Virus record (IMG/VR): IMGVR_UViG_3300033153_010210
Span: 1 to 64,000 of that record
Strand: one strand, 5' to 3'
DNA length: 64,000 nucleotides
DNA from: a virus
The notes under the pieces were generated by a model. The model was not told the DNA's origin. It ran no database searches and worked only from the letters and a program-made list of their open reading frames with translations. Of the stretch, positions 26,515-51,153 are shown one piece after another. Within the stretch, counting starts at the first letter, position 1, and each line of letters begins with the position of its first letter. The position numbers and the translations under genes were made by a program.

Positions 26515-27213
26515 ATGGGAGATTATACTATTAAAGAAGTACTTCAAATTACAGATAAATATTATCCAAATAGATTTACATATAAAGAACGTGATGTAGT
26601 AAAACGTATTGTTATAAAAGAAGTGAAAGAAGTACAACGACATGATATTCCTGGAGGCCCGAGAGTATATACGAAATATGTTATTGAAAGCAAATCATGG
26701 CCACAGTATTATCCTTATTTTACTAGAACAGATAGCAGAGGTAGACGTAGACGCTATCAAAGAAGTGTAGCTCATTATTATGATGTAATATTCGAAACGG
26801 ATAGATTGAGCTTAAATACTAAGAAATGGGTGGGTAGAGTTGGCAGTGGAAAAAAGTGGAATGCTAGACCGCCACAATCGCAAATAAAAAGTTTATATCC
26901 TGAAACAAGGGAAAAATTTAGAAGAAGGGCTAGAGGTAATCAACAAGAATATAAGAGACTTGTAGAAAGACATAAAAGAAGTGCACCGTATCTTGATGTA
27001 GGCGATTATAATAGTAGAGTAAATGGAATTATGGGGGATTTTTGTTTTAGACAAGCTTGGGCATATTACACTCATGGCCATCTATTTGGAAGACAATATT
27101 ATGGTAACGTACCTTCTTCAATTACAAATCCTAACGCTATTGTTTTTTTCGATAAACATCAATTAAATGTAATTGACCAACTTATGAGAAGAGGGATCTT
27201 AAAAGATGATTAA
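26515..27213 (+). CDS. Hypothetical basic protein, probable virion component
   Basis: A protein of 232 residues, strongly basic and Tyr/Arg-rich (RTDSRGRRRRYQRS, REKFRRRARG), with an aromatic middle region (WAYYTHGHLFGRQYYG). No ribosome site is obvious directly before the ATG. It overlaps the next gene by 8 bases. No known family. Its late position suggests a virion protein that may touch DNA. Confidence 0.6.
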   Translation: MGDYTIKEVLQITDKYYPNRFTYKERDVVKRIVIKEVKEVQRHDIPGGPRVYTKYVIESKSWPQYYPYFTRTDSRGRRRRYQRSVAHYYDVIFETDRLSLNTKKWVGRVGSGKKWNARPPQSQIKSLYPETREKFRRRARGNQQEYKRLVERHKRSAPYLDVGDYNSRVNGIMGDFCFRQAWAYYTHGHLFGRQYYGNVPSSITNPNAIVFFDKHQLNVIDQLMRRGILKDD

Positions 27214-27718
27214 GATTATAAATTTTAAAGAAAAGATTTATGGAAATATGGCAATAGTTTTCCATAGAACTAGCGTTTCAGATTTAGTAAATAAAGTTTT
27301 TACAAGTGGATTTAAACCTGGTACAGGAGATAAATATGGAAGAGGATTTTATGCTACTTATGAACTTGAGTCACAAGAGCGACCAGAAATGAAGAAATAT
27401 GGAACCTGGAAAAATGGAACTTGGAGAAATGGAGTCTGAAAAGACGGAACCTGGAAAAAAGGAATCTGGAAAGATGGGATTTGGGAAGACGGAGCTTGGG
27501 AAGGCGGGCAATGGGAAAAAGGAGTTTGGAAAAAAGGTACCTGGGAAAATGGGATTTGGGAGTATGGAACTTGGGAAAATGGAGATTGGAAAGATGGAAT
27601 TTGGGAAAGTGGGGTGTGGAAAGGTGGAAAGATATGGAACCCTCAAACAAAAAAATATCAGTATAGTGACAAAAACCCTTATGATTGCGAATGGAGCTTG
27701 AGTTATTATAAAAGATAA
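27206..27718 (+). pseudogene. ART-like N-terminus fused to GxWxx repeats, interrupted by TGA
   Basis: The N-terminus carries FHRTS (residues 19-23) and KYGRGFYATY (43-52). These resemble the HGT and YGKGIY motifs that form the NAD site of PARP-like ADP-ribosyltransferases, and a known phage protein type with the same start. After only about 65 residues it switches to GTWKN repeats. At 27437-27439 a TGA replaces the TGG expected by the repeat. The frame then continues through about 12 more repeats and the shared cap to TAA at 27718. So it is a nonsense-mutated member, or relies on readthrough. The catalytic C-terminal half of an ART domain is missing. Confidence 0.7.
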
Positions 27719-27751
27719 TAATATTTATGACATAAGGAGGGAGAGTAAAAC

Positions 27752-29044
27752 GTGATTAAAATATTTAAAAACCTGAACCTTCTTGAAAAGAAAGATCACA
27801 TTATAAGAAAAATGCCCAATTTGACTAGTGAGCAGAAGGAAGAACTAATAAACTTTTTCAATAGACACCCAAATTATGAAAATAGGGTCGATTGGAATAA
27901 GTGGAGAACTTTAACATACGAAGATTTTAAAGACATTCTTGAAATTGAATCCAAAACTCAAAGGAAGAAATCCGTTAAGACAAGAGGAATAAAAGGACTA
28001 AAAGAGGGTAAGGATTATATTCAATTGAAGAATTTGCCCGACGATATACAAGGATATATTCCTTTGAATTACGAGGCATCAAAATTTATTGCTTCTAGAT
28101 ATGTAGGAGGCATTGAAGGAAAATGGTGTACTGCATATCAAAAAACCGATAAATATTGGGAAGAATATAAAAGCTACGGGGTAATTTTTATATATTTAAT
28201 CAAAGACAATGAAAAATATGCAATAGCTGTTTATCTCGACAATAAAACTTATGAAATTTATAATAAAGATGACGATAAAATTTCTTTTATAGAAGGCATT
28301 AATATTAAATCAGATATATTAAATGATCGAAATGTTTCTCTTTTTGAAAAAGTAAGAAAAGAAATCGGTTTTGAACATTGGATTACCAAAGCTGAAATAT
28401 CAAAGGATGCTAAGTTTGAATATGGCGAATTTAGGCAAATAGTTTGGTTAGATGGGGCGTGGTATAAAGGGACTTGGTATAACGGAATTTGGAAAAATGG
28501 AATTTGGAAAAATGGAACTTGGGAAGATGGTTCTTGGAAGAGTGGAACTTGGAAGAGTGGAACTTGGAAGTTTGGAACTTGGGAAGATGGAATATGGGAA
28601 AATGGAAATTGGATAATGGGATTATGGGAAGATGGAATTTGGAAAGACGGAACTTGGAAAGATGGAACTTGGGAGGATGGAACATGGAAAAGTGGAATTT
28701 GGAACAAAGGGGGATGGACAAAAGGGATATGGGAAGACGGAATATGGAAAAATGGAATTTGGGGTGGAGGAACCTGGGAAAGTGGAATTTGGAAGGATGG
28801 ATCTTGGATTAAGGGGACGTGGATTAATGGAACTTGGGAATTTGGAACTTGGTATAACGGAATTTGGAAAAACGGAACTTGGAAAGATGGAACTTGGATT
28901 GATGGGGAATGGAAAGACGGAATCTGGAAAGATGGAGTATGGAAAGGTGGAAAAATATGGGATCCTCAAATAGAAAAATATCAATATAGTGACAAAAACC
29001 CCTATGATTGTGAATGGAGCTTAAGTTATTACAAAGAACAATAG
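27752..29044 (+). CDS. GxWxx-repeat protein, family A, member 1
   Basis: A protein of 430 residues. A helical N-terminus (MIKIFKNLNLLEKKDH...) runs to about 65. A mixed domain around 90-200 contains the conserved KWCTAYQKT (Trp125-Cys126) and YAIAVYLDNKTYEIY strands. From about 233 there are roughly 33 five-residue repeats, then the shared cap beginning GGKIWDP and ending EWSLSYYKEQ. WCTA-type domains recur in uncharacterised phage proteins, with function unknown. GTG start behind GGAGGGAG, aligned with its paralogues. It may be virion-associated, as discussed in the findings. Confidence 0.85.
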   Translation: MIKIFKNLNLLEKKDHIIRKMPNLTSEQKEELINFFNRHPNYENRVDWNKWRTLTYEDFKDILEIESKTQRKKSVKTRGIKGLKEGKDYIQLKNLPDDIQGYIPLNYEASKFIASRYVGGIEGKWCTAYQKTDKYWEEYKSYGVIFIYLIKDNEKYAIAVYLDNKTYEIYNKDDDKISFIEGINIKSDILNDRNVSLFEKVRKEIGFEHWITKAEISKDAKFEYGEFRQIVWLDGAWYKGTWYNGIWKNGIWKNGTWEDGSWKSGTWKSGTWKFGTWEDGIWENGNWIMGLWEDGIWKDGTWKDGTWEDGTWKSGIWNKGGWTKGIWEDGIWKNGIWGGGTWESGIWKDGSWIKGTWINGTWEFGTWYNGIWKNGTWKDGTWIDGEWKDGIWKDGVWKGGKIWDPQIEKYQYSDKNPYDCEWSLSYYKEQ

Positions 29045-29076
29045 TATTTATATTATAAAGATGGTGGTTGAGGGGC

Positions 29077-30354
29077 ATGATCAAAATATTTAAAAATTTA
29101 AACTTACTTGAAAAAAAAGATCATATTATAAGAAAAATACCTAATTTGACTAATGAGCAGAAGGAGGAGCTGATAAACTTTTTCGATAAACACCCAAATT
29201 ACGAAAATAGAATTGATTGGAACAGGTGGAGGACTTTAACATACGAAGATTTTAAGGGTATTCTTGAAATTGAATCAAAGACTCAGAAAAAAAAATCCGT
29301 TAAGATAAGTGGAATAAAAGGACTAAAAGAGGGTGAGGATTATATTCAACTGAAAGGGTTGCCCGATGATACGCAAGGATACATACCTCTAAATTACGAG
29401 GCTTCAAAATTTATTGCTTCTAGATATGTAGGGGGTATCGAGGGGAGATGGTGTACAGCATATCAAAAAACTAGGGAATATTGGGAAAAATATACAAGTG
29501 AGAATATAATCTTAATTTATTTGATTAATAATAATACAAAATATGCAATAGCCGTTTATCCAAATAATAAAACTCATAAAATTTATGATAGTGATGACAA
29601 CAAAATTTCTTATATTCCCGGTATTGATATTAACCGAGATATATTAAATAAAAGAAACATTTCTATTTTTGAAAAAATAAGAAGAGAAGTTGAAGACTAT
29701 AAGCATTGGATTCATAAAGCTGAAATATCAAGAGACGCTAGATTCGAAATTGATAAAACAAATCAAGTAATTTGGTACAAAGGGACTTGGGTAGATGGGG
29801 TATGGGAAAGGGGAACTTGGATTAATGGGATTTGGTTTGATGGTTATTGGGCAAAAGGAGCTTGGAAGAATGGAATTTGGAGAGGGGGAACTTGGGAAAA
29901 AGGAACTTGGGAAGACGGAACCTGGGAAAAAGGAATTTGGTATGGCGGGACTTGGAAAGATGGAATTTGGGAACATGGAACTTGGAAAGATGGAACTTGG
30001 AAATATGGAACCTGGAAAAATGGAGTTTGGGAAAGTGGAACTTGGAAAGATGGAGTCTGGAAAAGCGGAACCTGGAAAAATGGAGCCTGGGAAAGCGGAA
30101 CTTGGAAAGATGGAACCTGGAAGCTTGGAATCTGGGAACTTGGGACTTGGATTAATGGAACCTGGGAGTCTGGAACTTGGGAATATGGAACCTGGAAAGA
30201 TGGAGTCTGGGAAGGTGGGGATTGGGACGATGGAAATTGGGAAAAGGGAGTATGGAAAGGTGGAAGGATATGGAATCCAGAAACAGGAAAATATCAATAT
30301 AGCGATAAGAACCCAAACGAATGTGAATGGAGCTTAAGTTATTACAAAAGATAA
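29077..30354 (+). CDS. GxWxx-repeat protein, family A, member 2
   Basis: A protein of 425 residues with the full family A N-terminal region and about 32 repeats, including a segment KLGIWELGTW shared with two family B genes. ATG at 29077 is chosen by alignment with the MIKIFKNLN start of the other members and the GGTGG at 29063-29067. An earlier in-frame TTG at 29068 is less likely. It ends in the common cap (GGRIWNPETGKYQYSDKNP). The stretch before the cap (GGDWDDGNWEKGVW) is nearly identical to member 6. Confidence 0.85.
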   Translation: MIKIFKNLNLLEKKDHIIRKIPNLTNEQKEELINFFDKHPNYENRIDWNRWRTLTYEDFKGILEIESKTQKKKSVKISGIKGLKEGEDYIQLKGLPDDTQGYIPLNYEASKFIASRYVGGIEGRWCTAYQKTREYWEKYTSENIILIYLINNNTKYAIAVYPNNKTHKIYDSDDNKISYIPGIDINRDILNKRNISIFEKIRREVEDYKHWIHKAEISRDARFEIDKTNQVIWYKGTWVDGVWERGTWINGIWFDGYWAKGAWKNGIWRGGTWEKGTWEDGTWEKGIWYGGTWKDGIWEHGTWKDGTWKYGTWKNGVWESGTWKDGVWKSGTWKNGAWESGTWKDGTWKLGIWELGTWINGTWESGTWEYGTWKDGVWEGGDWDDGNWEKGVWKGGRIWNPETGKYQYSDKNPNECEWSLSYYKR

Positions 30355-30373
30355 TAATATGGGGGAGTAAAAC

Positions 30374-31516
30374 GTGATTAAAATATTTAAAAATCTGAAC
30401 CTTCTTGAAAAAAAAGATCACATTATAAGAAAAATACCTAATTTGACTAGTGAACAGAAGGAGGAGCTAATAAATTTTTTCAATAAACACCCAAATTACG
30501 AGAACAGAATTGATTGGAATAAGTGGAAAACTTTAACATACGAAGATTTTAAAGACATTCTAGGGATTGAATCTAAGACTCAAAGGAAAAAATCCGTTAA
30601 GATAAGTGGAATAAAAGGATTAAAAGAGGGCGAGGATTATATTCAATTGAAGAATTTGCCTGACGATACGCAAGGATATATCCCTTTGAATTACGAGGCT
30701 TCAAAATTTATTGCTTCTAGATATGTAGGGGGTATCGAGGGGAAATGGTGTACAGCATACCAAAAAACTAGGGAATATTGGGAAGAATATAAAAGTGATA
30801 GGATAATTTTTATATATTTAATCAAAGACAATGAAAAATATGCAATAGCCGTTTATCCTGACAATAGAACTTATGAAGTTTATGATAAAAATGATAACAA
30901 AATTTCTTATATTCCCGGTATTGATATTAAACGAGATATATTAAATAAAAAAAATATTTCTATTTTTGAAAAAATAAAAAGAGAAGTTGAAGACTACAAG
31001 CATTGGATTTATAAAGTTAAAATATCAAAAGACGCTAGATTTGAAATTGATAAGACGAATCGGGTATTTTGGTATGAAGGGACTTGGATAGATGAGGTAT
31101 GGGAAAGTGGAACCTGGAAAGATGGAACTTGGCTTGATGGTTATTGGACAGATGGAACTTGGGAGAATGGAACCTGGGAAAATGGTACTTGGGAATATGG
31201 AATCTGGGAAAATGGGGTTTGGAAAGACGGAATTTGGAAAGATGGAACTTGGTTGAAGGGGGTTTGGAAAGAGGGAATTTGGAAAAATGGAGTTTGGGAA
31301 AATGGAACTTGGGAAGATGGGACATGGGAGGATGGGTTTTGGGAAAATGGAATCTGGAAAGATGGAACTTGGAAAGATGGAACTTGGAAGGATGGAATCT
31401 GGAAAGACGGAGTGTGGAAAGGTGGAAAGATATGGAACCCTCAAACAAAAAAATATCAGTATAGTAACAAAAACCCCTATGATTGTGAATGGGGTTTAAG
31501 CTATTACAAGAAATAA
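30374..31516 (+). CDS. GxWxx-repeat protein, family A, member 3
   Basis: A protein of 380 residues. The family A N-terminal domain is complete with KWCTAYQKT. The repeat block is shorter (about 23 units), and its second unit reads DEVW instead of DGVW. It ends in the common cap. GTG start behind GGGGGAG, only 19 bases after the previous stop, so the array is probably one transcript. Confidence 0.85.
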   Translation: MIKIFKNLNLLEKKDHIIRKIPNLTSEQKEELINFFNKHPNYENRIDWNKWKTLTYEDFKDILGIESKTQRKKSVKISGIKGLKEGEDYIQLKNLPDDTQGYIPLNYEASKFIASRYVGGIEGKWCTAYQKTREYWEEYKSDRIIFIYLIKDNEKYAIAVYPDNRTYEVYDKNDNKISYIPGIDIKRDILNKKNISIFEKIKREVEDYKHWIYKVKISKDARFEIDKTNRVFWYEGTWIDEVWESGTWKDGTWLDGYWTDGTWENGTWENGTWEYGIWENGVWKDGIWKDGTWLKGVWKEGIWKNGVWENGTWEDGTWEDGFWENGIWKDGTWKDGTWKDGIWKDGVWKGGKIWNPQTKKYQYSNKNPYDCEWGLSYYKK

Positions 31517-31552
31517 TAATACTTATATTATAAAAATGGGGGGTTGAGGGGC

Positions 31553-32341
31553 ATGATCAAAATATTTAAAAATTTGAACCTTCTTGAAAAAAAAGATCAC
31601 ATTATAAGAAAAATGCCCAATTTAACTAGTGAACAGAAGGAAGAAATAATAAATTTTTTTAATAAGTGTCCAAATTACGAGAATGGAATTGATTGGAACG
31701 AGTGGGAAACTTTAATATATGAAGATTTTAAGAATATTCTTAAAATTGATCCCAGAATTCAAGGAAGGGAATTTGTTAAAATAAGCGGAATAAAAGAATT
31801 AAAGAGGGGTGATGATTATATTCAATTGAAGAAAGCCCCTAATAATGTGCAAGAATACACCCCCTTAGATTATAAAGCGTCAAAATTTATTATTTCTGAA
31901 AAAGAAATCGGTTTTGAGCATTGGATTACCAAAGCTGAAATATTAAAGGAGGCTAAATTTAAATTTGATGGGCCTACACAAATAATTTGGTTAAGTGGAA
32001 CTTGGAAAAACGGAACTTGGAAAAACGGAACTTGGAAGGATGGGATTTGGGAAAACGGAACCTGGCAAACTGGAACTTGGGAAAATGGAACTTGGAAAAA
32101 CGGAACTTGGGAAGACGGAATTTGGAAAAATGGAACTTGGAAATTTGGAACTTGGAAAGGTGGGGTTTGGAATGATGGGATTTGGGTAATGGGAATTTGG
32201 AAAGATGGAAATTGGAAAGATGGAGCATGGAAAGGCGGGGAGATATGGAATCTAGAAACAAGAAAATATGAATATAGCGATAAAAACCCATACGAATGTG
32301 AATGGAGTTTAAGTTATAGAAAGTTTCCATATCAATATTAA
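31553..32341 (+). CDS. GxWxx-repeat protein, family A, member 4, internally deleted
   Basis: A protein of 262 residues. It keeps the helical N-terminus to about residue 110 (ASKFI), then jumps to EIGFEHWITKAEI. That omits about 95 residues including the WCTA domain that all other family A members have. The junction region matches member 1 best. About 16 repeats and the common cap follow. The frame is intact, so a shortened protein is made. ATG at 31553 is chosen by alignment with MIKIFKNLN. Confidence 0.85.
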   Translation: MIKIFKNLNLLEKKDHIIRKMPNLTSEQKEEIINFFNKCPNYENGIDWNEWETLIYEDFKNILKIDPRIQGREFVKISGIKELKRGDDYIQLKKAPNNVQEYTPLDYKASKFIISEKEIGFEHWITKAEILKEAKFKFDGPTQIIWLSGTWKNGTWKNGTWKDGIWENGTWQTGTWENGTWKNGTWEDGIWKNGTWKFGTWKGGVWNDGIWVMGIWKDGNWKDGAWKGGEIWNLETRKYEYSDKNPYECEWSLSYRKFPYQY

Positions 32342-32354
32342 AAAGAGGTGTGTT

Positions 32355-32588: not shown

Positions 32589-32672
32589 TACTAAGATATG
32601 AAAAGATAGATTAAGATGATGCTTGGTTAGAAAAATGATTACAATTTTTGAATTTTAAGAAAAAACTTATAG

Positions 32673-32696: not shown

Positions 32697-32721
32697 ATTA
32701 GAGAGATATGCGGTATAAAAG

Positions 32722-33954
32722 ATGGTTAGAATATTCAAAAATTTAAATTTATTCGAAAAGAAAGATCATATTATAAGAAAAATGCCCAATTTGACTAGTG
32801 AACAAAAAGAAGAGCTGATAAATTTCTTTAGTAGGCATCCTAACTATGAAAATAGAATTGATTGGAATAAGTGGAAAACTTTAACATACGAAGATTTTAA
32901 AGACATTCTAGGAATTGAATCAAAGACTCAAAGAAAGAAATCTGTTAAGATAAGTGGAATAAAAGGATTAAAAGAGGGCAAGGATTATATTCAACTGAAA
33001 GGGTTGCCTGACGATATGCAAGGATACATTCCTTTAAACTATGAGGCATCAAAATTTATTGCCTCTAAATATGTAGGAGGCATCAAAGGAAAATGGTGCA
33101 CAGCATATCGAAAAAGTAAGGAATATTGGGAAAAATATACAAGTAAGAGTATAATCTTAATTTATTTGATTGGTAATAATACAAAATATGCAATATCCGT
33201 TTATCTAGATAATAGAACTTATGAAATTTATGATAGTAAGGATAACAAAATTTCTTATATTCCCGGTATTGATATTAAACGAGATATATTAAATAAAAGA
33301 AATATTTTTATTTTTGAAAAAATAAGAAGAGAAGTTGAAGACTACAAGCATTGGATTTATAAAGTTAAAATATTAAAAGGCGCTAGATTTGAAATTGATA
33401 AGACAAATCAAGTAATTTGGTATAAAGGAATTTGGATAGATGGAGTATGGGAAAGGGGAACTTGGGTTAATGGAGTTTGGCTTGATGGTTATTGGACAGA
33501 TGGAACTTGGGAAGACGGAACTTGGAAAGAGGGGACTTGGGAAAAGGGAACCTGGAAAGACGGAACCTGGGAAAAAGGAATTTGGTATGGCGGGATTTGG
33601 AAAGATGGGATCTGGGAATTTGGAACTTGGAAAGATGGAACTTGGAAAGGGGGGACTTGGGAAAAGGGTACTTGGGAAGACGGAACTTGGGAAGATGGCT
33701 TCTGGGAAAACGGAACTTGGGAAGATGGGACTTGGCTGGAGGGGGTTTGGAAAGATGGAACTTGGGAAGACGGAACTTGGGAAGATGGAACTTGGAAATA
33801 TGGAGTCTGGGAAGGTGGAGTTTGGAAAGATGGAATTTGGGAAAGTGGAGTGTGGGAAGGTGGAAAGATATGGAACCTGAAAACAAAAAAATATAAATAT
33901 AGCGATAAGAACCCATACGAATGTGAATGGAGTTTGAGTTATTACAAAAGATAA
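32722..33954 (+). CDS. GxWxx-repeat protein, family A, member 5
   Basis: A protein of 410 residues starting MVRIFKNLNLFEKKD. Full family A N-terminal region with KWCTAYRKS, about 29 repeats rich in EDGTW and EKGTW, and the common cap. It lacks a strong ribosome site (only GAGAGAT upstream). It follows a gap that carries the remnant of another repeat gene. Confidence 0.83.
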   Translation: MVRIFKNLNLFEKKDHIIRKMPNLTSEQKEELINFFSRHPNYENRIDWNKWKTLTYEDFKDILGIESKTQRKKSVKISGIKGLKEGKDYIQLKGLPDDMQGYIPLNYEASKFIASKYVGGIKGKWCTAYRKSKEYWEKYTSKSIILIYLIGNNTKYAISVYLDNRTYEIYDSKDNKISYIPGIDIKRDILNKRNIFIFEKIRREVEDYKHWIYKVKILKGARFEIDKTNQVIWYKGIWIDGVWERGTWVNGVWLDGYWTDGTWEDGTWKEGTWEKGTWKDGTWEKGIWYGGIWKDGIWEFGTWKDGTWKGGTWEKGTWEDGTWEDGFWENGTWEDGTWLEGVWKDGTWEDGTWEDGTWKYGVWEGGVWKDGIWESGVWEGGKIWNLKTKKYKYSDKNPYECEWSLSYYKR

Positions 33955-33987
33955 TAATATTTATGGCGTAAAAAGGGAGAATAAAAG

Positions 33988-35175
33988 ATGATTAGAATAT
34001 TTAAAAATTTAAACTTACTTGAAAAAAAAGATCATATTATAAGAAAGATGCCCAATTTGACTAGTGAGCAGAAGGAAGAGCTAATAAACTTTTTCAACAA
34101 ACATCCAAATTATGAAAACAGGATTGATTGGAACAAATGGAAAACTTTAACTTATGATGATTTTAAAAATGTTCTAGGGATTGAATCTAAAACTCAGAGA
34201 AAAAAATCTGTCAAAACAAAAGGAATACGGGGATTAAAGGAAGGCGAGGATTATGTTCAATTAAAAGAACTTCCAAATAATGTAGAGGCATATATTCCTT
34301 TAAATTATGAGGCTTCAAAATTTATTGCCTCCAAATATGTAGGGGGTATCGAGGGAAAATGGTGTACTGCATATCAAAAAACCGATGAGTATTGGAAGAA
34401 ATATACAAATGAGAGTATAATCTTAATTTATTTAATTAGTAATGATACAAAATATGCAATAGCCGTTTATCCAAATAATAAAACTCATAAAATTTATGAT
34501 AGTGATGATAACAAAATTTCTTATATCCCTGATATTTATATTAACCGAGATATATTAAATAAAAGAAACATTTCTATTTTTGAAAAAATAAGAAGAGAAG
34601 TTGAAGATTATAAGCATTGGGTTCATAAAGCTGAAATATCGAAAGACGCCAAATTCGAAATTGATAAGACAAATCAAGTAATTTGGTACAAAGGGGTTTG
34701 GATAGATGGATTATGGGAAAGGGGAACCTGGAAAGATGGAACTTGGGAATATGGAATCTGGAAAGATGGTATCTGGGAAAAAGGAATCTGGAAAGATGGT
34801 ATTTGGGAAGACGGAACTTGGAAATTTGGAACTTGGGTATACGGAATTTGGATAGATGGAACTTGGGAAAACGGAACTTGGAAGAAGGGAACCTGGGAAG
34901 ATGGAGTCTGGGAAACCGGAACTTGGGCGAAAGGAACTTGGGAAGATGGAATCTGGAAAGATGGGGTTTGGAAAGATGGAACCTGGGAGTCTGGAACTTG
35001 GGAATATGGAACCTGGAAAGATGGCATCTGGGAAGGTGGGGATTGGGACGATGGAAATTGGGAAAAGGGAGTATGGAAAGGTGGAAGGATATGGAGTTCA
35101 AAAACAGAAAGATATGAATATAGTGTAAAAAATCCTTATGACTGTAAATGGAGTTTAAGCTATAAAAAACGTTAG
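33988..35175 (+). CDS. GxWxx-repeat protein, family A, member 6
   Basis: A protein of 395 residues with the full N-terminal region and about 26 repeats. The last repeats before the cap (ESGTWEYGTWKDGIWEGGDW) are almost the same as in member 2, although the central repeats differ, which points to exchange between copies. ATG follows AAAAGGGAG. It is the last gene of the first array. The next unit starts at a TACTAATA box. Confidence 0.85.
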   Translation: MIRIFKNLNLLEKKDHIIRKMPNLTSEQKEELINFFNKHPNYENRIDWNKWKTLTYDDFKNVLGIESKTQRKKSVKTKGIRGLKEGEDYVQLKELPNNVEAYIPLNYEASKFIASKYVGGIEGKWCTAYQKTDEYWKKYTNESIILIYLISNDTKYAIAVYPNNKTHKIYDSDDNKISYIPDIYINRDILNKRNISIFEKIRREVEDYKHWVHKAEISKDAKFEIDKTNQVIWYKGVWIDGLWERGTWKDGTWEYGIWKDGIWEKGIWKDGIWEDGTWKFGTWVYGIWIDGTWENGTWKKGTWEDGVWETGTWAKGTWEDGIWKDGVWKDGTWESGTWEYGTWKDGIWEGGDWDDGNWEKGVWKGGRIWSSKTERYEYSVKNPYDCKWSLSYKKR

Positions 35176-36093: not shown

Positions 36094-36342
36094 ATGACAG
36101 ATATTGAAATTTTTTTACAAAGAAACATGGACAGGATGGATAGGGACACGTTGATAGGGGTGATGGCCGATAAATTTAATTTGAGCTTGGAACAAGCAGA
36201 AGAAATAATTATGGAAAGGGAAAAAATAAGAAAAAAAGAATCCCTTATAACAGTAACAAGATCTTTTTTAATAGAGACGAATAATATAGTTTTTGCTTTA
36301 GAAAAAGGGGATAAAATTAATATATTACATAGAGTTGAGTAA
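36094..36342 (+). CDS. Small protein with C-terminal GDKI module
   Basis: A protein of 82 residues: an N-terminal helical half (DTLIGVMADKFNLSLEQAEEII) and then the recurring module (VTRSFLIETNNIVFALEKGDKINIL). This is the smallest carrier and shows that the module can stand almost alone. Its stop overlaps the next ATG (TAATG), so it is coupled to the fused repeat gene. Confidence 0.7.
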   Translation: MTDIEIFLQRNMDRMDRDTLIGVMADKFNLSLEQAEEIIMEREKIRKKESLITVTRSFLIETNNIVFALEKGDKINILHRVE

Positions 36343-43010: not shown

Positions 43011-43029
43011 CAAACAAGGGGATTGATTG

Positions 43030-44502
43030 ATGATCATTATAAGAAAATTAAATGAATATTTATCAGGATTTGATTATCGTCTTCCTGATGACCCCGAATT
43101 GATTTTATACGATTTCTATTTCTTAACTACTTACGGGAACGATATAGAAACAAATATGCCTGAGGCGGACTTCGCAATAAAGGAGGCTTCTGATAAAATT
43201 GTAGAGAGTCTTCATGCCCACATGTTAAAGGCAGTAAAATATGCGCTATGTAGTGAAATTAGACATATTTTCGATGGATTAAGAGATATTGAATCTCTTG
43301 AAGAATTAGCAAAAATGGATAAAAAAATAAATAGATTTGTTAATTCATATTCTAGAAATTATGAATTAAGTACTGGTATTGATCTTACGAATCGAGAACT
43401 TCGAGGTGTACTTACAAAAGAAACAGAATCAAGCAGACTAGCCTCTTATGAAGCTATTATTGAAACACAAAAAGAATTAAATATGACAAATATGGAATTG
43501 GCTAAAATTTTTAGTAGCCTGTTTTTAGAATTAGATTGGAAACGTGATTACGGGGGAAGAGCTTGGGATATGATAGTTGATGGATATAAAATGCTTCTGA
43601 AAGCTAAGAGGAAAAATGAAAAAATCATTGCCATCGATCACACTTATGATTTACAGCATAATACTGATACGGTTTTTAATAAACTGCAGATATACTATAA
43701 AGATAGCTCTGGATATGGGTGGATTAGAAGAGCGTTAAATTGGAAAAAGGATGTAGAAGATATTCGTTTTTTTTATGAAAAAGTATCACCTCAACTACGG
43801 AGAATAGTAGCTTTTATAGCGTATAATGTGTACGGACTTACAATGGAAGATAAATCTTATCAGCATAGAGTTTGGACAGGCGGAATTTGGGCGGGGGGAA
43901 CTTGGAATGATGGAATTTGGAAAAATGGGATTTGGAAAGATGGAACTTGGAATGACGGGGCTTGGATTAACGGAACCTGGGAGAAAGGAGCCTGGAGAAA
44001 TGGAATTTGGAAAAATGGAATATGGCAAAATGGAACCTGGGAGCTTGGAACCTGGGAAAATGGTACTTGGGAATATGGAATTTGGGAAAACGGTACTTGG
44101 AAATATGGAACTTGGTTTTACGGAACTTGGAAAAATGGAACTTGGGAAGACGGGGAATGGAAAGATGGGGTCTGGGAATATGGAGTTTGGAAAAATGGAG
44201 TTTGGAAGTATGGAACTTGGTATAATGGAACCTGGGAAAACGGGACTCGAGAAAGTGGAACATGGCTAGAAGGGGTTTGGAAAAATGGAGTTTGGGAAGA
44301 TGGTACTTGGTTGTATGGAGTTTGGAAAGATGGGGTTTGGAATGATGGAATCTGGGAAAATGGGATTTGGGAAGATGGAATTTGGAGAAACGGAGCTTGG
44401 GAGGGTGGCAAAATATGGAATCCTAAAACAAGAGAATATGAATATAGTAATAAAAACCCATACAAGTGTGAATGGAGTTTAAGCTATAGAAAAGAGCGAT
44501 AA
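43030..44502 (+). CDS. GxWxx-repeat protein, family B, member 1
   Basis: A protein of 490 residues. The family B N-terminal domain (about 280 residues) contains LILYDFYFLTTYG, SEIRHIF and AIDHTYDLQHNTD, segments also found in other uncharacterised phage proteins. About 35 GxWxx repeats follow (one reads GTR because TGG has become CGA), then the common cap. ATG at 43030 follows AAGGGG (43016-43021). It starts MIIIRKLNE and is the most divergent of the five members at the N-terminus. Confidence 0.85.
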   Translation: MIIIRKLNEYLSGFDYRLPDDPELILYDFYFLTTYGNDIETNMPEADFAIKEASDKIVESLHAHMLKAVKYALCSEIRHIFDGLRDIESLEELAKMDKKINRFVNSYSRNYELSTGIDLTNRELRGVLTKETESSRLASYEAIIETQKELNMTNMELAKIFSSLFLELDWKRDYGGRAWDMIVDGYKMLLKAKRKNEKIIAIDHTYDLQHNTDTVFNKLQIYYKDSSGYGWIRRALNWKKDVEDIRFFYEKVSPQLRRIVAFIAYNVYGLTMEDKSYQHRVWTGGIWAGGTWNDGIWKNGIWKDGTWNDGAWINGTWEKGAWRNGIWKNGIWQNGTWELGTWENGTWEYGIWENGTWKYGTWFYGTWKNGTWEDGEWKDGVWEYGVWKNGVWKYGTWYNGTWENGTRESGTWLEGVWKNGVWEDGTWLYGVWKDGVWNDGIWENGIWEDGIWRNGAWEGGKIWNPKTREYEYSNKNPYKCEWSLSYRKER

Positions 44503-44520
44503 AACAAAGGTCTGTCAGCA

Positions 44521-46071
44521 ATGATTAAAATAATTCGAGTAAAGCCAAAAATAAAAGAAATCTTCTCAAACTTTGTATACAGAATGCCTGATGATCCTGA
44601 GTTGATTTTATACGATTTTTATTTCTTAACTACTTACGGAAAAAATATAGAAACAAACATGCCCGAAGCAGATTTTGCGATAAACGAAGCGGTCGAACAG
44701 ATTATTGAAAATCTTCATGCACACATGTTAAAGGCTGTAAAATATGCTCTATGCGCTGAGATTCGTCATATTTTTGATTCTACAGCAGCTGAATCATTAA
44801 AGCAATTAGTTGAAAAAAACAAGAACATTGGAACCTTTATCAAGACATATTATAAAAAATATATCACTTTTACAGAAATAAGTAGAACACCGCTTGATTT
44901 CTTACTTGATGATAGATCGGGGGAGGCTGACAGATTAAGAAACGTTCTTTCTAAAGAGACAGATTCAAAAAGAAAAAGCTCATACAGGGCAGTTACAGAG
45001 ACACAAAAAGATTTAAAGATAACAAACTCTGAACTGTCAAAAATATTTGAATACGTATTCTTAAAGCTTGTTTGGCAACCACAATTCGGAGGCCCAGCAT
45101 GGGCCGATATTGCCAAAGCTTATTATAGACTTCTAAGGGCTAAGAGGAAAAACGAAAAAATCATTGCCATTGACCATGCCTATGATTTACAGCATAACAC
45201 CGATACGGTTTTTAATAAGTTGCAGATATACTATAAAGATGGTTATAGTTGGATTAAAGATGCTTTGGATTGGAAAAGAGATGTAAAGGATATTCGATCT
45301 TTTTACAATAAAGTTTCTCCTCAATTAAGGAGAATAGTAGCCTTCATAGCATACAATGTATATGGGCTTACAATGGAGGGAGGAACTCCTCGTTCAGTTG
45401 ATCAAGATAAAATCTGGACGAGGGGGCTCTGGAAGGGGGGAACCTGGACAGGAGAAATTTGGAAATATGGAATTTGGGAGAAAGGAACTTGGAAAGGCGG
45501 GACTTGGAAAGATGGAATTTGGAAAGACGGAACTTGGGAAGATGGAATTTGGAAAGACGGAATTTGGAAAAATGGAACTTGGAAAAATGGAACTTGGAAG
45601 GGTGGAACTTGGGAAAGTGGAAGTTGGAGAAATGGAATTTGGGAAGATGGGATTTGGAAAGAAGGTGATTGGGAAAATGGAACTTGGAAAGATGGATTCT
45701 GGATGTACGGATATTGGAAAAATGGTACCTGGAAGAGCGGAACTTGGAAAGATGGGATTTGGAAAAGTGGAACCTGGAAAAATGGAACTTGGAGATATGG
45801 AACTTGGAAAAGTGGAACTTGGAAAAATGGAACCTGGAGGGATGGGATCTGGGAAAATGGAACTTGGGAAGATGGAACTTGGTTTAAAGGGGTTTGGAAA
45901 AATGGAACTTGGAAAAATGGAACTTGGGAAAATGGATTTTGGAAAGATGGGGTTTGGGAAGGCGGAATATGGAAGAGTGGGGAGATATGGAATCCGGAGA
46001 CAGATGAATATGAATATAGTGATAGAAATCCATACGAATGTGAATGGAGTTTAAGTTATAGAAAAGGATAA
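44521..46071 (+). CDS. GxWxx-repeat protein, family B, member 2
   Basis: A protein of 516 residues starting MIKIIRVKPKIKEIFSNF. Full family B domain with AIDHAYDLQHNTD, then about 37 repeats (one unit is GEIW) and the cap (GEIWNPETDEYEYSDRNP). The upstream leader AAAGGT plus TCAGCA before the ATG recurs before members 4 and 5, so the leader was copied with the gene. Confidence 0.85.
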   Translation: MIKIIRVKPKIKEIFSNFVYRMPDDPELILYDFYFLTTYGKNIETNMPEADFAINEAVEQIIENLHAHMLKAVKYALCAEIRHIFDSTAAESLKQLVEKNKNIGTFIKTYYKKYITFTEISRTPLDFLLDDRSGEADRLRNVLSKETDSKRKSSYRAVTETQKDLKITNSELSKIFEYVFLKLVWQPQFGGPAWADIAKAYYRLLRAKRKNEKIIAIDHAYDLQHNTDTVFNKLQIYYKDGYSWIKDALDWKRDVKDIRSFYNKVSPQLRRIVAFIAYNVYGLTMEGGTPRSVDQDKIWTRGLWKGGTWTGEIWKYGIWEKGTWKGGTWKDGIWKDGTWEDGIWKDGIWKNGTWKNGTWKGGTWESGSWRNGIWEDGIWKEGDWENGTWKDGFWMYGYWKNGTWKSGTWKDGIWKSGTWKNGTWRYGTWKSGTWKNGTWRDGIWENGTWEDGTWFKGVWKNGTWKNGTWENGFWKDGVWEGGIWKSGEIWNPETDEYEYSDRNPYECEWSLSYRKG

Positions 46072-46108
46072 TTATTATTAGAAAGTTATAAAAAGGGAAG
46101 TAATAATA

Positions 46109-47872
46109 ATGATTAAAATAGTTCGAGTAAAACCGAAAATAAAAGAAATTTTCTCAAACTTTGTATATAGGATGCCTAAAGATCCCGAGTTAATTCTGTA
46201 CGATTTTTATTTTTTGACTACTTACGGGAAAGATATAGAAACAAATATGCCTGAGGCTGACTTTGCAATAAAGGAGGCTTCTGATGAAATTGTAGAATCC
46301 CTTCATACCCACATGCTAAAGGCAGTAAAATATGCCCTGTGTGCCGAGATTCGTCATATTTTTGATGCTATAGCAACCGAATCATTGAAACGATTGGTTG
46401 GGGAAAACAAGAATATAGGGGCATTTATTAAAGTGTACTATAGAAAATATCTTGCCTTTATAGAAATAGGTAAAGTACCGCTTGACTTTTTACTCGATGA
46501 TAGATCGGAGGAGGCTGGCAGATTAAGAAACGTTCTCTCTAAAGAAACTGATTTGAAAAGGAAAAGCTCATATAGAGCGATTGCAGAAACGCAAAAAGAG
46601 TTGAAGATAACAAATTCGGAACTGTCAAAAATATTTGAATATTTATTCTTAAATCTTATTTGGTATTCACAATTCGGAGGTTTTGCATGGGCCGATATTG
46701 CCGAAGCTTATTATAGACTTTTAAAGGCTAAGAGGAAAAATGAAAAAATCATTGCTATAGATCATGCCTATGATTTGCAACACAATACCGATATAGTTTT
46801 CAATAAATTACGGCTATATTACAAAGATGGTTATAGTTGGATTAAAAGAGCACTGGATTGGAAAAAGAATGTGAAGGATATTCGATCTTTTTACAAAAAA
46901 GTTTCTCCTCAATTAAAGAGAATAGTAGCCTTCATAGCATACAATGTATACGGGCTTACAATGGAGGGGGGAACTCCTCGTTCAGTTGATCAAGATAGAA
47001 TCCGGACAGGAAGATCCTGGGAGGGAGGAACCTGGACAGGGGGAATCTGGGAAAACGGGACTTGGGAAAAAGGAACCTGGGAAAACGGAACCTGGAAAAA
47101 CGGAACTTGGAAACTTGGAATCTGGGAACTTGGGACTTGGGAAAATGGAACTTGGGAGTCTGGGACTTGGGAATATGGAACCTGGAAAAATGGAGTCTGG
47201 AAAGACGGAGATTGGGAAGATGGAATTTGGAAGGGAGGAATTTGGGAATATGGAACTTGGATGAGTGGAGTCTGGAAATTTGGAACTTGGAAAGACGGAA
47301 CATGGGAAAATGGGGTTTGGGAAAAAGGAATTTGGGAAAAAGGAACTTGGAAAAGTGGAGCTTGGAAGAACGGGGTTTGGAAAAATGGAACTTGGAAAGA
47401 TGGAAGATGGGAAGATGGAATCTGGAAAGATGGAACTTGGGAAGACGGGGTTTGGAAAAATGGAACTTGGGAAAATGGGACTTGGGAAAATGGAATTTGG
47501 TTAGAAGGGATCTGGAAAAATGGAACTTGGAAAAACGGAACTTGGGAATATGGATTCTGGAAAAATGGGGTTTGGAAAGATGGAACTTGGGAAGATGGAA
47601 CATGGGGAGAGGGGGTCTGGAAAGAAGGAATTTGGAAGGGAGGAATTTGGGAATACGGAACTTGGAATAATGGAATTTGGAAATTCGGAACCTGGAATAA
47701 TGGAATTTGGAATAATGGGATTTGGGAAGATGGAGTGTGGAAAGATGGGGTTTGGAAAGATGGAGCATGGAAAGGTGGGGAAATATGGAATCCAAAGACA
47801 AATGAATATGAATATAGTAATAAAAACCCATACGAATGTGAGTGGGGTTTAAGTTATAGAAAAGAGCAATAA
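46109..47872 (+). CDS. GxWxx-repeat protein, family B, member 3
   Basis: A protein of 587 residues with about 50 repeats, one of the two longest. The repeat section begins with RIRTGRSWEGG, where the other members have KIWTGG, so the first unit has decayed. It shares KLGIWELGTW with a family A gene 17 kb upstream. The domain has HNTDIVFNK where the relatives have HNTDTVFNK. It ends in the cap GEIWNPKTNEYEYSNKNP. Confidence 0.85.
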   Translation: MIKIVRVKPKIKEIFSNFVYRMPKDPELILYDFYFLTTYGKDIETNMPEADFAIKEASDEIVESLHTHMLKAVKYALCAEIRHIFDAIATESLKRLVGENKNIGAFIKVYYRKYLAFIEIGKVPLDFLLDDRSEEAGRLRNVLSKETDLKRKSSYRAIAETQKELKITNSELSKIFEYLFLNLIWYSQFGGFAWADIAEAYYRLLKAKRKNEKIIAIDHAYDLQHNTDIVFNKLRLYYKDGYSWIKRALDWKKNVKDIRSFYKKVSPQLKRIVAFIAYNVYGLTMEGGTPRSVDQDRIRTGRSWEGGTWTGGIWENGTWEKGTWENGTWKNGTWKLGIWELGTWENGTWESGTWEYGTWKNGVWKDGDWEDGIWKGGIWEYGTWMSGVWKFGTWKDGTWENGVWEKGIWEKGTWKSGAWKNGVWKNGTWKDGRWEDGIWKDGTWEDGVWKNGTWENGTWENGIWLEGIWKNGTWKNGTWEYGFWKNGVWKDGTWEDGTWGEGVWKEGIWKGGIWEYGTWNNGIWKFGTWNNGIWNNGIWEDGVWKDGVWKDGAWKGGEIWNPKTNEYEYSNKNPYECEWGLSYRKEQ

Positions 47873-47890
47873 AATAAGGAGCTATCAGCA

Positions 47891-49681
47891 ATGATTAAAA
47901 TAATTCAAGTAAAATCAAAAATGAAAGAAATTTTCTCAAATTTTGTATACAGGATGCCCAAAGATCCTGAGTTAATTTTGTACGATTTTTATTTCTTGAC
48001 TACTTACGGGAACGATATAGAAACAAATATGCCTGAGGCTGATTTTGCAATAAAAGAGGCTTCTGATGAAATTGTTGAAAATCTTCATGCACACATGCTA
48101 AAGGCAGTAAAATATGCCCTGTGTGCCGAGATTCGTCATATTTTTGATGCTACAGCAATTGAATCATTAAAACAATTGGTTGAGAAAAACAAGAACATTG
48201 GGGCTTTTATTAAAATGTACTATAAAAAATATCTCACCTTTACAGATGTAGGTAAGGCCCCACTTGATTTTTTACTTGATGATAGATCGGGCGAGGCTGA
48301 CAGATTAAGAAATGTTCTCTCTAAAGAAACCGATTTAAGAAGAAAATGCTCATACAGAGCAGTTACAGAGACACAAAAAGAGTTGAGGATAACAAACTCT
48401 GAACTGTCAAAAATATTTGAATACCTATTTTTGAATCTTGTCTGGCAATCACAATTCGGTGGTTCAGCATGGGCTGATATTGCCAAATCTTATTATATGC
48501 TTTTAAAAGCCAAGAGGAAAAATGAAAAAATCATCGCTATTGATCATGCTTACGATTTGCAACATAATACCGATACGGTTTTCAATAAATTACAGTTATA
48601 TTATAAAGACGGTTATAGTTGGATTAGAAATGCTTTAGATTGGAAAAGGGATGTAGATGATATTCGTTCTTTTTATGAAAAAGTTTCCCCCCAGCTAAGG
48701 AGAATAGTGGCATTTATAGCATACAATGTATATGGGATTACGATGGAGGGGTGGCTTTCCCATTCAGTTGATCAAGATAAAATTTGGACAGGGGGGTCCT
48801 GGAAAGGAGGAACTTGGACAGGAGGGACTTGGGAAAATGGGACATGGGAAAAAGGAATTTGGGAAAACGGTATTTGGGCGGGTGGAACTTGGGTAAGTGG
48901 GGCCTGGAAAGATGGAGTTTGGGAAAGTGGAACTTGGAAATTCGGAACTTGGACGGATGGGACTTGGGAAAATGGAACTTGGGAAAATGGGATTTGGGAA
49001 TATGGAACTTGGAAAGATGGAACTTGGATATATGGAATTTGGAAAAACGGAACTTGGTTATTTGGAACTTGGTATGACGGGATTTGGAAAAAGGGGGTCT
49101 GGATATATGGAACTTGGAAAAATGGAACTTGGGAAGATGGAACTTGGAAAAATGGAACCTGGAAAGATGGAACTTGGAGAAATGGAGTCTGGAAAGATGG
49201 AACCTGGAAAAATGGAGTCTGGGAACTTGGAACCTGGAAAGATGGAGTTTGGGAAAGTGGAATTTGGAAATATGGAACTTGGAAGCTTGGAATCTGGGAA
49301 CTTGGGACTTGGGAAAATGGAATTTGGGAAGATGGGGATTGGGAAGATGGAACCTGGAAAAATGGAATTTGGAAAGGTGGGGATTGGGAAGATGGAACCT
49401 GGAAAGACGGGATCTGGGAACTTGGAACTTGGAAAGATGGAGTTTGGAAAAGTGGAACTTGGGAGGATGGAGTTTGGAAAAGTGGAACTTGGGAAAATGG
49501 AGCCTGGACAATGGGGACTTGGGAAGATGGGATCTGGGAAAATGGAACTTGGAAAGAAGGAACCTGGAAAGACGGGATATGGAAAGGTGGGGGGATATGG
49601 AATCCAGAAACAAAAGAATATGAATATAGTAATAAAAACCCATACGAGTGTGAGTGGAGTTTAAGCTATAGAAAGAGATAA
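47891..49681 (+). CDS. GxWxx-repeat protein, family B, member 4
   Basis: A protein of 596 residues, the longest of the set, with about 53 repeats. Full family B domain. The repeat run includes blocks found elsewhere (KLGIWELGTWENGIW) and internal near-duplications (two GGDWEDGTW or GDWEDGTW blocks), suggesting local expansion. Leader AAGGAGCTATCAGCA before the ATG. It ends in the cap GGIWNPETKEYEYSNKNP. Confidence 0.85.
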   Translation: MIKIIQVKSKMKEIFSNFVYRMPKDPELILYDFYFLTTYGNDIETNMPEADFAIKEASDEIVENLHAHMLKAVKYALCAEIRHIFDATAIESLKQLVEKNKNIGAFIKMYYKKYLTFTDVGKAPLDFLLDDRSGEADRLRNVLSKETDLRRKCSYRAVTETQKELRITNSELSKIFEYLFLNLVWQSQFGGSAWADIAKSYYMLLKAKRKNEKIIAIDHAYDLQHNTDTVFNKLQLYYKDGYSWIRNALDWKRDVDDIRSFYEKVSPQLRRIVAFIAYNVYGITMEGWLSHSVDQDKIWTGGSWKGGTWTGGTWENGTWEKGIWENGIWAGGTWVSGAWKDGVWESGTWKFGTWTDGTWENGTWENGIWEYGTWKDGTWIYGIWKNGTWLFGTWYDGIWKKGVWIYGTWKNGTWEDGTWKNGTWKDGTWRNGVWKDGTWKNGVWELGTWKDGVWESGIWKYGTWKLGIWELGTWENGIWEDGDWEDGTWKNGIWKGGDWEDGTWKDGIWELGTWKDGVWKSGTWEDGVWKSGTWENGAWTMGTWEDGIWENGTWKEGTWKDGIWKGGGIWNPETKEYEYSNKNPYECEWSLSYRKR

Positions 49682-49719
49682 CAAAATAATAAAATTATAG
49701 AAAAAAGGGGTTGCCAGCA

Positions 49720-51153
49720 ATGATTAAAATAATTCGAGTAAAACCAAAAATAAAAGAAATTTTCTCAAATTTTGTATACAGGATGCCTGATGATCCTGAG
49801 TTAATTCTGTATGATTTCTATTTCTTGACTACTTATGGGAAAGATATAGAAACAAACATGCCTGAGGCTGATTTTGCGATAAACGAAGCGGTCGAACAGA
49901 TTATTGAAAATCTTCATACCCACATGTTGAAGGCAGTAAAATATGCCTTGTGTGCCGAGATTCGTCATATTTTTGATGCTACAGCAACCGAATCATTAAA
50001 ACAATTAGTTGAAAAAAATAAGAACATTAGAACCTTTATCAAGACATATTATAAAAAATATATCACTTTTACAGAAATAAGTAGAACACCGCTTGACTTT
50101 TTACTCGATGATAGATCGGGCGGGGCTGATAGATTAAGAAACGTTCTTTCTAAAGAAACAGATTCAAAAAGAAAAAGCTCATACAGGGCAATTACAGAGA
50201 CACAAAAAGAGTTAAAGATAACAAACTTGGAACTGTCAAAAATATTTGAATACCTATTTTTGAATCTTGTCTGGCAATCACAATTCGGTGGTTCAGCATG
50301 GGCTGATATTGCTAAATCTTATTACATGCTTTTAAAAGCCAAAAGGAAAAATGAAAAAATCATTGCCATTGATCATGCCTATGATTTGCAGCATAATACT
50401 GATACGGTTTTTAATAAGTTGCAGATATACTATAAAGATGGTTATAGTTGGATTAGAGATGCTTTGGATTGGAAAAGGGATGTAGAAGATATTCGATTTT
50501 TTTACAATAAAGTATCGCCTCAACTACGGAGAATAGTAGCTTTTATAGCGTACAATGTATATGGGATTACGATGGAGGATAAACTTTATCAACATGGAGT
50601 TTGGACAGGGGGAGCTTGGAAAGGTGGAATTTGGACAGGAGGGACTTGGAAAAAAGGTACTTGGATATATGGAACATGGGAAAATGGTATTTGGGAAGAC
50701 GGAACTTGGGAAAGTGGAACTTGGAAAAACGGAACTTGGAAAAACGGAACTTGGAAATTCGGAACTTGGGTAGACGGAACTTGGAAAAGAGGTACTTGGG
50801 AAAACGGGGTTTGGCAAAATGGAACATGGAAAGATGGAACTTGGATATATGGAATTTGGAAAAGTGGAATTTGGAAAAATGGATTCTGGGAGGACGGAAT
50901 TTGGGAACTTGGAACTTGGGAAAATGGAGATTGGAAGAACGGAACTTGGAGGGATGGGATTTGGAAAGATGGAATTTGGAAAAATGGAATATGGCAAAAT
51001 GGAACCTGGGAAAAAGGAGTTTGGAAAGATGGAGTTTGGAAAGATGGAATTTGGAAAAACGGCAAAATATGGAACTCAGAGACAAGAGAATATGAATATA
51101 GTAATAAAAACCCATACGAGTGTGAGTGGAGTTTAAGTTATGGTAAAAAATAA
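49720..51153 (+). CDS. GxWxx-repeat protein, family B, member 5
   Basis: A protein of 477 residues. The N-terminal domain is closest to member 2 in the segment NKNIRTFIKTYYKKYITF. The repeat start (YQHGVWTGGAWKGG) resembles member 1. So it looks like a mosaic of two relatives. About 31 repeats and the cap (GKIWNSETREYEYSNKNP). ATG at 49720 is chosen by the conserved CAGCA leader. The in-frame TTG at 49711 is rejected. Confidence 0.85.
   Translation: MIKIIRVKPKIKEIFSNFVYRMPDDPELILYDFYFLTTYGKDIETNMPEADFAINEAVEQIIENLHTHMLKAVKYALCAEIRHIFDATATESLKQLVEKNKNIRTFIKTYYKKYITFTEISRTPLDFLLDDRSGGADRLRNVLSKETDSKRKSSYRAITETQKELKITNLELSKIFEYLFLNLVWQSQFGGSAWADIAKSYYMLLKAKRKNEKIIAIDHAYDLQHNTDTVFNKLQIYYKDGYSWIRDALDWKRDVEDIRFFYNKVSPQLRRIVAFIAYNVYGITMEDKLYQHGVWTGGAWKGGIWTGGTWKKGTWIYGTWENGIWEDGTWESGTWKNGTWKNGTWKFGTWVDGTWKRGTWENGVWQNGTWKDGTWIYGIWKSGIWKNGFWEDGIWELGTWENGDWKNGTWRDGIWKDGIWKNGIWQNGTWEKGVWKDGVWKDGIWKNGKIWNSETREYEYSNKNPYECEWSLSYGKK

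Follow-up and report, generated by a model that had tools for sequence, protein, structure and literature searches.

The window analysed here is the opening 64,000 bases of a metagenomic record of a bacterial virus (IMG/VR IMGVR_UViG_3300033153_010210; 106,054 bases in all). It holds thirteen genes whose products carry tandem five-residue units of the form G-x-W-x-x; a gene or protein with such units is called here a W gene or a W protein. Judged by its sequence, the repeat is an unnamed domain, chiefly of phages, that is widespread and was found undescribed. As for the role of the thirteen genes, the chances are about even that they encode internal head proteins of the type known from phage T4, each made of a leader, a swappable payload and a rod of Trp pentapeptides.

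The W genes and their repeat

Translation found all thirteen genes where the initial annotation had placed them: seven in 27.2-35.2 kb, one at 36.3 kb and five in 43.0-51.2 kb (Table 1). If units are counted as G-x-W-x-x in unbroken runs of at least three, these genes hold 405 units, with 12 to 53 per gene. The initial annotation had given more than 400 units and about 15 to 53 per gene. Its estimate that about 18 kb is spent on the Trp repeat needs correction, as the thirteen whole genes sum to 16.4 kb and the counted units (405 x 15 bases) to 6.1 kb. Likewise, only twelve of the thirteen genes proved intact; the gene at 27206 is interrupted by an in-frame stop, which is also present in a sister contig (L004; L-numbers are labels of the loci found), and the gene called 31544 lacks the middle of its N-terminal domain (N-domain). 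Each of the 12 intact genes has a run of at least 16 units, and so exceeds the eight contiguous repeats that serve as a criterion for proteins of the pentapeptide family PF00805.

At the level of DNA, a pattern for three units in a row has 388 forward occurrences and no reverse one in the 106,054-base record, and none in a backwards control. In the 42,054 bases past the window there is no forward occurrence. The Gly codons of the counted units are GGA (301), GGG (80), GGT (22) and GGC (2), where the first two bases of the codon, like the TGG, are of course fixed by the definition of the unit itself. Because the third base varies, the units are not straight copies of one DNA sequence. When Phe and Tyr are permitted at the centre of the unit, the share of Trp there is 100% in the window genome and 98% in others.

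As a by-product, the repeat DNA also holds long open frames on other frames or on the other strand (28258-51115), and the matches to PF01469 described below fall in frames of this kind. Over 41113-55678 the window is 100% identical to three sister contigs, and over 22169-36351 it differs from them by one base; recorded differences are a C/T at 32752 (gene 32722) and a two-base insertion or deletion at 40042 (gene 39080-40432). Because these contigs are nearly identical to the window, turnover of the repeat cannot be observed in them.

The repeat and known families

The initial annotation held that no system of this form had been described, and that the repeat differs from pentapeptide repeats. 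The difference holds by sequence. As to the first view, no family model names the W repeat in Pfam (6 + 10 sequences), PHROGs (6) or NCBIfam (10), and a literature search turned up no description of it. The consensus of PF00805 has a central Leu or Phe, with A, C, S, V, T, L or I at position i-2 (PMC8145042); the W units, with Trp at the centre and Gly at i-2, do not have it. The PF00805 model, which is positive in 9 of 14 control genomes, has no match in the record, and none in five W proteins and one stub. A second model, Pentapeptide_2 (PF01469), gave 30 matches at an expectation value (E) of up to 1, three of them over the cut-off with neighbours; none of the 30 lies in the frame of the gene.

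Two further families have to be considered. The MORN consensus has a GxWxxG core, which the W repeat also displays, and the best match of the repeat profile in the PDB (E 0.032, with a ragged alignment) is RSP1, which we take to be a MORN protein. Against a membrane- or lipid-related MORN family, the MORN model PF02493 matches nothing in the record at E up to 1, and the period of the W repeat is 5 rather than the 23 of the model; this relationship is very improbable. The pentapeptide-like register that we infer for the units might likewise suggest a DNA mimic or topoisomerase-binding protein like Qnr or MfpA. Here, the charge argues otherwise, since the repeat is only mildly acidic (219 K + R versus 301 D + E in 2025 repeat residues), and such an activity would be a considerable surprise.

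Some relatives of the W proteins carry the annotations “phosphatidylinositol 4-phosphate 5-kinase-like protein” or “photosystem II stability factor.” Marine long-read data are enriched in “MORN” and pentapeptide repeats, according to PMC9238414, and we suspect that some of these annotations mark candidate members of the W repeat.

Distribution

When one full-length protein served as the query, 12 loci came up, of which six belong to sister contigs of the same virus. A scan of viral contigs with an alignment of the repeat confirmed 152 relatives, of which 80 were kept; it gave 71 loci, and the ten at the head of the list lie on those sister contigs. The survey of architectures covered 105 distinct open reading frames (ORFs) with W repeats, a few of them out of frame. 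In a phage collection, the clear cases are gp54 of Pseudomonas phage PspYZU05, a minimal W protein, and large uncultured phages. A further 115 Rheinheimera phages match weakly, among the matches listed through proteins annotated as pentapeptide.

Among 84,980 genomes of bacteria and archaea, nine loci were confirmed, and their peptide patterns differ slightly. Three of these (L112, L113, L115) are in metagenome-assembled genomes of Bdellovibrionales or Bdellovibrionaceae, where the W proteins have N-termini that by eye resemble signal peptides. Two of the three loci have housekeeping genes near them (a Clp-type ATPase, a semialdehyde dehydrogenase and a pseudouridine synthase at L112; a dihydrodipicolinate synthase at L115). 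To go by these N-termini, the same solenoid may be exported in Bdellovibrionales, and may be a general module for delivery or target binding. Among the other six loci, L114 and L118 look real, L111 and L116 look like matches due to low complexity, and neither L117 nor L119 yielded a four-repeat ORF under the filter used.

Domains before the repeat

The names of the N-domains are labels coined in this analysis. In the window, six W genes have an N-domain of the WCTA type and five a helical one; the broken gene at 27206 has an ADP-ribosyltransferase-like (ART-like) domain and the gene at 36342 a short Cys-containing part. Elsewhere, the repeat follows other domains. One has the motif S[RK]HPYD...W-x-SC (SRHPYD-SC; L007, L059, L077, L078, L084, L092), another is called GSCM (L009, L010), and a third, in L061, is amidoligase-like by a weak Pfam match (E 0.005, under the cut-off). 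Further kinds also occur before the repeat in relatives. Conversely, the WCTA domain is found without W repeats, and by eye with leucine-rich-like repeats in their place, in L023, L024 and L026, and the helical domain is joined to a KOW-like domain in a 595-kb phage. Thus, partners are swapped on both sides, which shows a modular system.

In the pairs tested by profile comparison, WCTA joins neither the helical nor the ART-like domain. A Cys motif is visible by eye in WCTA, SRHPYD-SC and GSCM, and profile comparisons of WCTA with SRHPYD-SC, and of SRHPYD-SC with GSCM, do not support a relationship. No solved structure stands out as a clear relative of the WCTA, helical or ART-like profile; a match of WCTA to phosphomethylpyrimidine synthase (E 0.0018) is probably due to chance. 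In the phage collection, the WCTA and ART-like domains had no match at E 0.01, and the N-part of gene 36342 none at E 0.1.

Of the catalytic His, Tyr and Asp of the Tox-ART-HYD2 ADP-ribosyltransferases, the ART-like alignment contains a candidate His and a candidate Tyr in four of four sequences. The candidate Asp is present in two of the three longer relatives (L012 twice; L083 has Gln) and absent from the window stub, where the domain stops after about 50 residues and the repeat follows directly. No ART model matched this domain in Pfam scans.

Caps

The repeat is capped at its C-terminal end and, in many proteins, at its N-terminal end too. The shared C-terminal cap (C-cap) of the initial annotation is indeed in all thirteen genes, with variants of its sequence. 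Its form in the window is GG-x-IWNP...CEWSLSY, with EWGLSY twice, KWSLSY once and some changes in IWNP; other phages have different C-caps, GGYD...GDSPDKW or GKPENA. An N-terminal cap (N-cap) before the repeat had been overlooked. This has the form W-[LIV]-x-x-A-x-I-x-x-A...W-x-x-G-x-W, and a profile of it was built from 13 sequences. At a threshold of 12 bits, 57 out of 90 further W proteins are positive; so are 21 of 1800 shuffles in which the first repeat was left intact, whereas no positive occurs among 1418 control windows. Scores of at least 16 bits are reached by gene 36342 and the six WCTA genes of the window, as measured on their sister-contig copies.

Setting among head and tail genes

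Upstream of the W genes, the protein of 20155-21735 is a relative of the T4 prohead protease gp21, with 52 of 180 columns identical in BLASTP (E 6e-8 for this single comparison). The Pfam model Peptidase_S77 has no match in it, and a scan with the protease returned sister contigs only; its charged part may be scaffold-like. The head protein of 23423-24862 resembles T4 gp23 in its N-terminal part only (E 3e-4). In that alignment its LTE, at residues 70-72, falls opposite an LTE of gp23 whose Glu is residue 65, the point up to which T4 removes a propeptide of 65 residues (PMC9026906). A candidate portal, 17820-19631, looks the part by eye, has no PHROG match and no support from BLAST, and is not claimed.

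Downstream are a sheath gene, genes for two tube-like proteins, a weak match to a baseplate hub and a tape measure gene. As the W genes lie between head protein and sheath, both arrays are inside the structural module of a contractile-tailed phage, a late module. At seven other loci, neighbours were tested (ten hand-chosen proteins, mainly from ORF lists). In six of them (L008, L056, L059, L066, L089, L009), a gene for a portal, a head-tail adaptor, a sheath stabiliser or a baseplate protein lies no more than about 3 kb from a W gene; L034 gave none.

This neck and tail neighbourhood would also suit virion structural proteins, in which the Trp rod would space or decorate tail, neck or capsid, held in place by the N-domains. 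So would a set of proteins of 1,400-2,300 residues from large phages (L014, L015, L101-L107), which end in N-cap and W repeats and of which seven in nine are followed by a protein starting MASTPLYK or similar; at the remaining two the stretch stops early or shows no protein of this type. Because the repeat ends these large proteins, a structural role keeps a share of the probability. This is a small one, as some payloads look like enzymes (the ART-like motif, the weak amidoligase match), six tandem paralogues of one kind stand in the window, and several leaders resemble capsid-targeting sequences.

The leader

T4 internal proteins (IPs) start with MKTYQEFIAE-A (IPII, IPIII) or MKTFKEF...TITE-A (IPI). 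In IPIII, residues 4 and 7 matter for targeting, and residues 8 and 10 for processing (PMC9026906). At L094, the W protein starts MKTFTQYITE-A and its neighbours MKTFVEYLTE-A and MKTYKTFMGE-A, position by position like T4. The starts MKSFKTYITE-K of the W protein at L025 and MISFKSFITE-A of its neighbour are also T4-like, as is MKTYKHLLEE-I at L027, which stands on a W protein that has no payload.

In the window, a leader that begins MIKI... and ends in hydrophobic-x-E is common to three dissimilar families of N-domains. By eye, the ending is [LIFM]xE in 12 of the 13 genes and [LI]xE in 10, and the sequences before it differ (MIKIFKNLNLLE, MIKIIRVKPKIKE, MIIIRKLNE, MIKIINFKE). The pattern M[IV][KRI]I[FIVR] picks out 13 of 591 candidate starts in the window, namely 12 W genes and the ORF at 53940; because the pattern was written after the genes had been seen, this count is a description and not a test.

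Across clusters of W proteins that carry a payload, [LI]xE falls within residues 4-25 in 12 of 17, versus 119 of 314 control clusters (p 0.008); extending the range to residue 40 weakens this (p 0.062). With a following Ala, [LI]xEA, the counts are 6 of 17 versus 22 of 314 (p 0.0014). Many of the control matches are themselves leader-bearing neighbours, which weakens the contrast. A loose form of the T4 rule finds 6 of 54 W proteins versus 16 of 647 others (p 0.0045). Sharing of a leader between a W gene and unrelated neighbours, examined over 38 loci, has a combined p of 0.010 and a binomial p of 0.12. L094 counts among the significant loci, with a matched neighbour that is possibly a distant relative. 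At L001 and L004, the sister loci of the window, no sharing was found, because there the leader is common to W genes and not to other genes.

Such mixed tests, together with minimal W proteins that have no leader, would also fit late proteins that do their work inside the infected cell without ever being packaged, the MIKI start being a feature of translation initiation or a seam of recombination. That the leader end is kept in nearly all window genes though the sequences differ, and that a gp21-like protease is present, argue the other way, and we regard this explanation as unlikely.

The fold

The repeat is likely, on the models, to be a beta-solenoid, as the initial annotation guessed. The guess fits weakly: parts of the repeat reach a local predicted local distance difference test (pLDDT) score of 72-86 and align with beta-helices, while the overall confidence of the models is low. 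Two AlphaFold2 models were made, with 8 and 5 sequences. Other parts of the repeat are under 60, and in the second model the other parts and the C-cap are under 50. A fold search of both models against the PDB gave no match at E 0.001 or better, which says nothing against families absent from the lists.

Residues 292-414 of the second model align with beta-helices in VIA-align: left-handed-type helices (Z up to 11.5, root-mean-square deviation (rmsd) 11), helices of two-partner secretion and of pectate lyases (Z 7.0-7.8, rmsd 3.1-3.5), and SV2 luminal domains (Z 6.0-6.9, rmsd mostly 2.5-3.2), where for repeats a Z under about 13 may reflect a common arrangement only. The SV2 luminal domains are presumably pentapeptide helices. 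When the repeat profile is aligned with SV2C (E 0.35-0.94), W falls on Phe and G on the residue at i-2. In a library of predicted viral structures, two matches have an E under 0.001, namely gp54 of PspYZU05 and a “photosystem II factor” of a marine phage; these bear the same repeat or the annotation of proteins that do. With a predicted Hokovirus protein, the match extends over 106 columns (1.0 A, 35% identity, Foldseek E 0.027).

A proposed role

Among the roles suggested by the initial annotation, the internal head protein has the most support, through the late position, the leader and the gp21-like protease; for an adaptor, nothing was found. The proposal starts from the gene architecture, the caps, the spread of the repeat, the swapping of domains, the late-module position, the protease relative and the shared window leader, and from these it predicts packaging, cleavage, injection, the geometry of a solenoid and an action on the host.

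The leader would bring the W protein into the scaffold core while the head assembles, and the gp21-like protease would cut it off after Glu. The mature W protein would then be packed with the DNA, injected, and act on the host. Its rod would be a beta-solenoid like the pentapeptide-repeat helix, with Gly in the small and Trp in the large inward position, closed by the C-cap and in most proteins also by the N-cap. Such a rod would be a rigid chassis, its length altered through gain or loss of units.

Several results weigh against this proposal. The ending [LI]xE alone does not separate payload from minimal proteins, as 8 of 14 minimal W clusters hold it (1 of 14 for [LI]xEA). The strict form of the T4 rule finds 2 of 54 W proteins versus 10 of 647 others, which is not significant (p 0.23), and the sharing of leaders with unrelated neighbours is significant at only 4 of the 38 loci. 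No hydrophobic-x-E leader is seen in gene 36342, and minimal W proteins (at L053, for example, a type of 117-240 residues) begin directly at the N-cap. The five helical proteins of the window score 1.2-9.2 bits for the N-cap, none of them clear. As for the rod, the mean pLDDT of the two models is 54, and repeat-lag statistics show no four-unit signal of the kind expected of a four-sided helix.

A polymorphic system of injected effectors, with a dozen in one phage, is a tentative proposal to which we give less than an even chance. Here, a Trp-solenoid chassis would carry swapped, capsid-targeted payloads (ART-like, WCTA, SRHPYD-SC, amidoligase-like, helical and others), and the chassis would itself be replaceable by leucine-rich-like repeats or SH3-like domains.

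Should internal head proteins be the correct assignment, a widespread unnamed domain would be defined, and leader, N-cap and Trp rod together would be a handle in sequence for phage proteins that are packed in the head and injected, many of which have no known function. The rod would, in turn, be a new extreme among beta-solenoids, with up to 53 tryptophans in one repeat row.

Features of the window and neighbouring genes

Table 1. W genes of the window and the genes that frame them
Feature	Position	Strand	Remarks
Broken W gene	27206..27718	+	Leader MIKIINFKE; ART-like first part (VFHRT...GRGFYATYE); stop after two units; past the stop, same frame, 12 more units and C-cap
WCTA-type N-domain, N-cap, 33 units, C-cap	27752..29044	+	GTG start
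WCTA-type N-domain, N-cap, 32 units, C-cap	29077..30354	+	ATG 29077 favoured over 29068
WCTA-type N-domain, N-cap, 21 units, C-cap	30374..31516	+	GTG start; AlphaFold2 model m702c142e3f9a
WCTA-type, middle of N-domain deleted; N-cap, 16 units, C-cap	31553..32341	+	Gene “31544”
WCTA-type N-domain, N-cap, 29 units, C-cap	32722..33954	+	
WCTA-type N-domain, N-cap, 26 units, C-cap	33988..35175	+	
Short distinct N-part, GDKI module, N-cap, 34 units, C-cap	36342..37319	+	N-part MPLPEPRKDESKQDFISRC...
Helical N-domain, 34 units as two runs, C-cap	43030..44502	+	Leader MIIIRKLNE
Helical N-domain, 34 units, C-cap	44521..46071	+	Leader MIKIIRVKPKIKE; phrog_20946 (function unknown), E 4.6e-10
Helical N-domain, 50 units, C-cap	46109..47872	+	
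Helical N-domain, 53 units, C-cap	47891..49681	+	phrog_20946, E 7.8e-10
Helical N-domain, 31 units, C-cap	49720..51153	+	ATG 49720; AlphaFold2 model m104875eac291
gp21-like prohead protease	20155..21735	+	Protease part is first about 163 residues, then long charged part
Major head protein	23423..24862	+	phrog_138, E 2.3e-8
Tail sheath	55520..57097	+	Downstream border of W-gene stretch; phrog_23, E 2.4e-30
Short open frame, 78 aa, without W repeat	53940..54176	+	Same leader (MIKIFSKYEKLKE)

Directly after the second array, 51203-52546 encodes a dual-specificity phosphatase domain (CDKN3 E 1.4e-14, DSPc E 1.5e-11), possibly another host-directed protein. Before that array, 41086-42639 encodes a P-loop NTPase-like protein with a weak RNA_helicase match, whose start, MRFITREIRSLAKIHPRRIDE-A, looks like a leader. 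A module of the approximate form I-x-[KR]PVxI-x(6-9)-LEKGDKIxIL, with variants, is common to six different proteins (19703-20092, 22626-23243, 35227-35679, 36073-36342, 36342-37319, 52610-53119) and is at times C-terminal; this GDKI module might be a second tag for assembly or targeting. Minus-strand genes at L145 (record 84001-104000) suggest, to the eye, a CMP-sialate synthetase, a sialic acid synthase and enzymes of a sugar pathway, possibly for a phage surface sugar.

Comparison with known systems

The T4 proteins IPI-IPIII and Alt resemble the W proteins in their short leader ending in hydrophobic-x-E, their diverse bodies and the protease of the gp21 type (PMC9026906 and PMC3012670). Unlike these, the W proteins have a shared C-terminal rod and many tandem paralogues, and their genes lie inside the head-tail module. 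Packaging of the W proteins is a prediction.

The polyvalent proteins of phages are also effectors with ART domains, for which packaging and injection have been proposed; they are chains of 2-15 domains, in contrast to the one payload and rod of a W protein, and in the main text of PMC5512222, which describes them, the words “tryptophan” and “solenoid” do not occur.

The proteins of Rheinheimera Barba phages annotated as Pentapeptide_2 (PF01469) contain GNWNT pentapeptides with some Trp (L018). They differ in being rich in Asn and in having Trp in only part of their units.

Proteins of PF00805, whose fold is a right-handed quadrilateral beta-helix, have Leu or Phe where the W repeat has Trp at the centre, with Gly at i-2 and no Pfam match. 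What the two have in common is a period of five residues, a small residue that precedes a large hydrophobic one by two places, unbroken series of eight or more repeats and, through weak matches of the W profile and model, a resemblance to the SV2 luminal domains.

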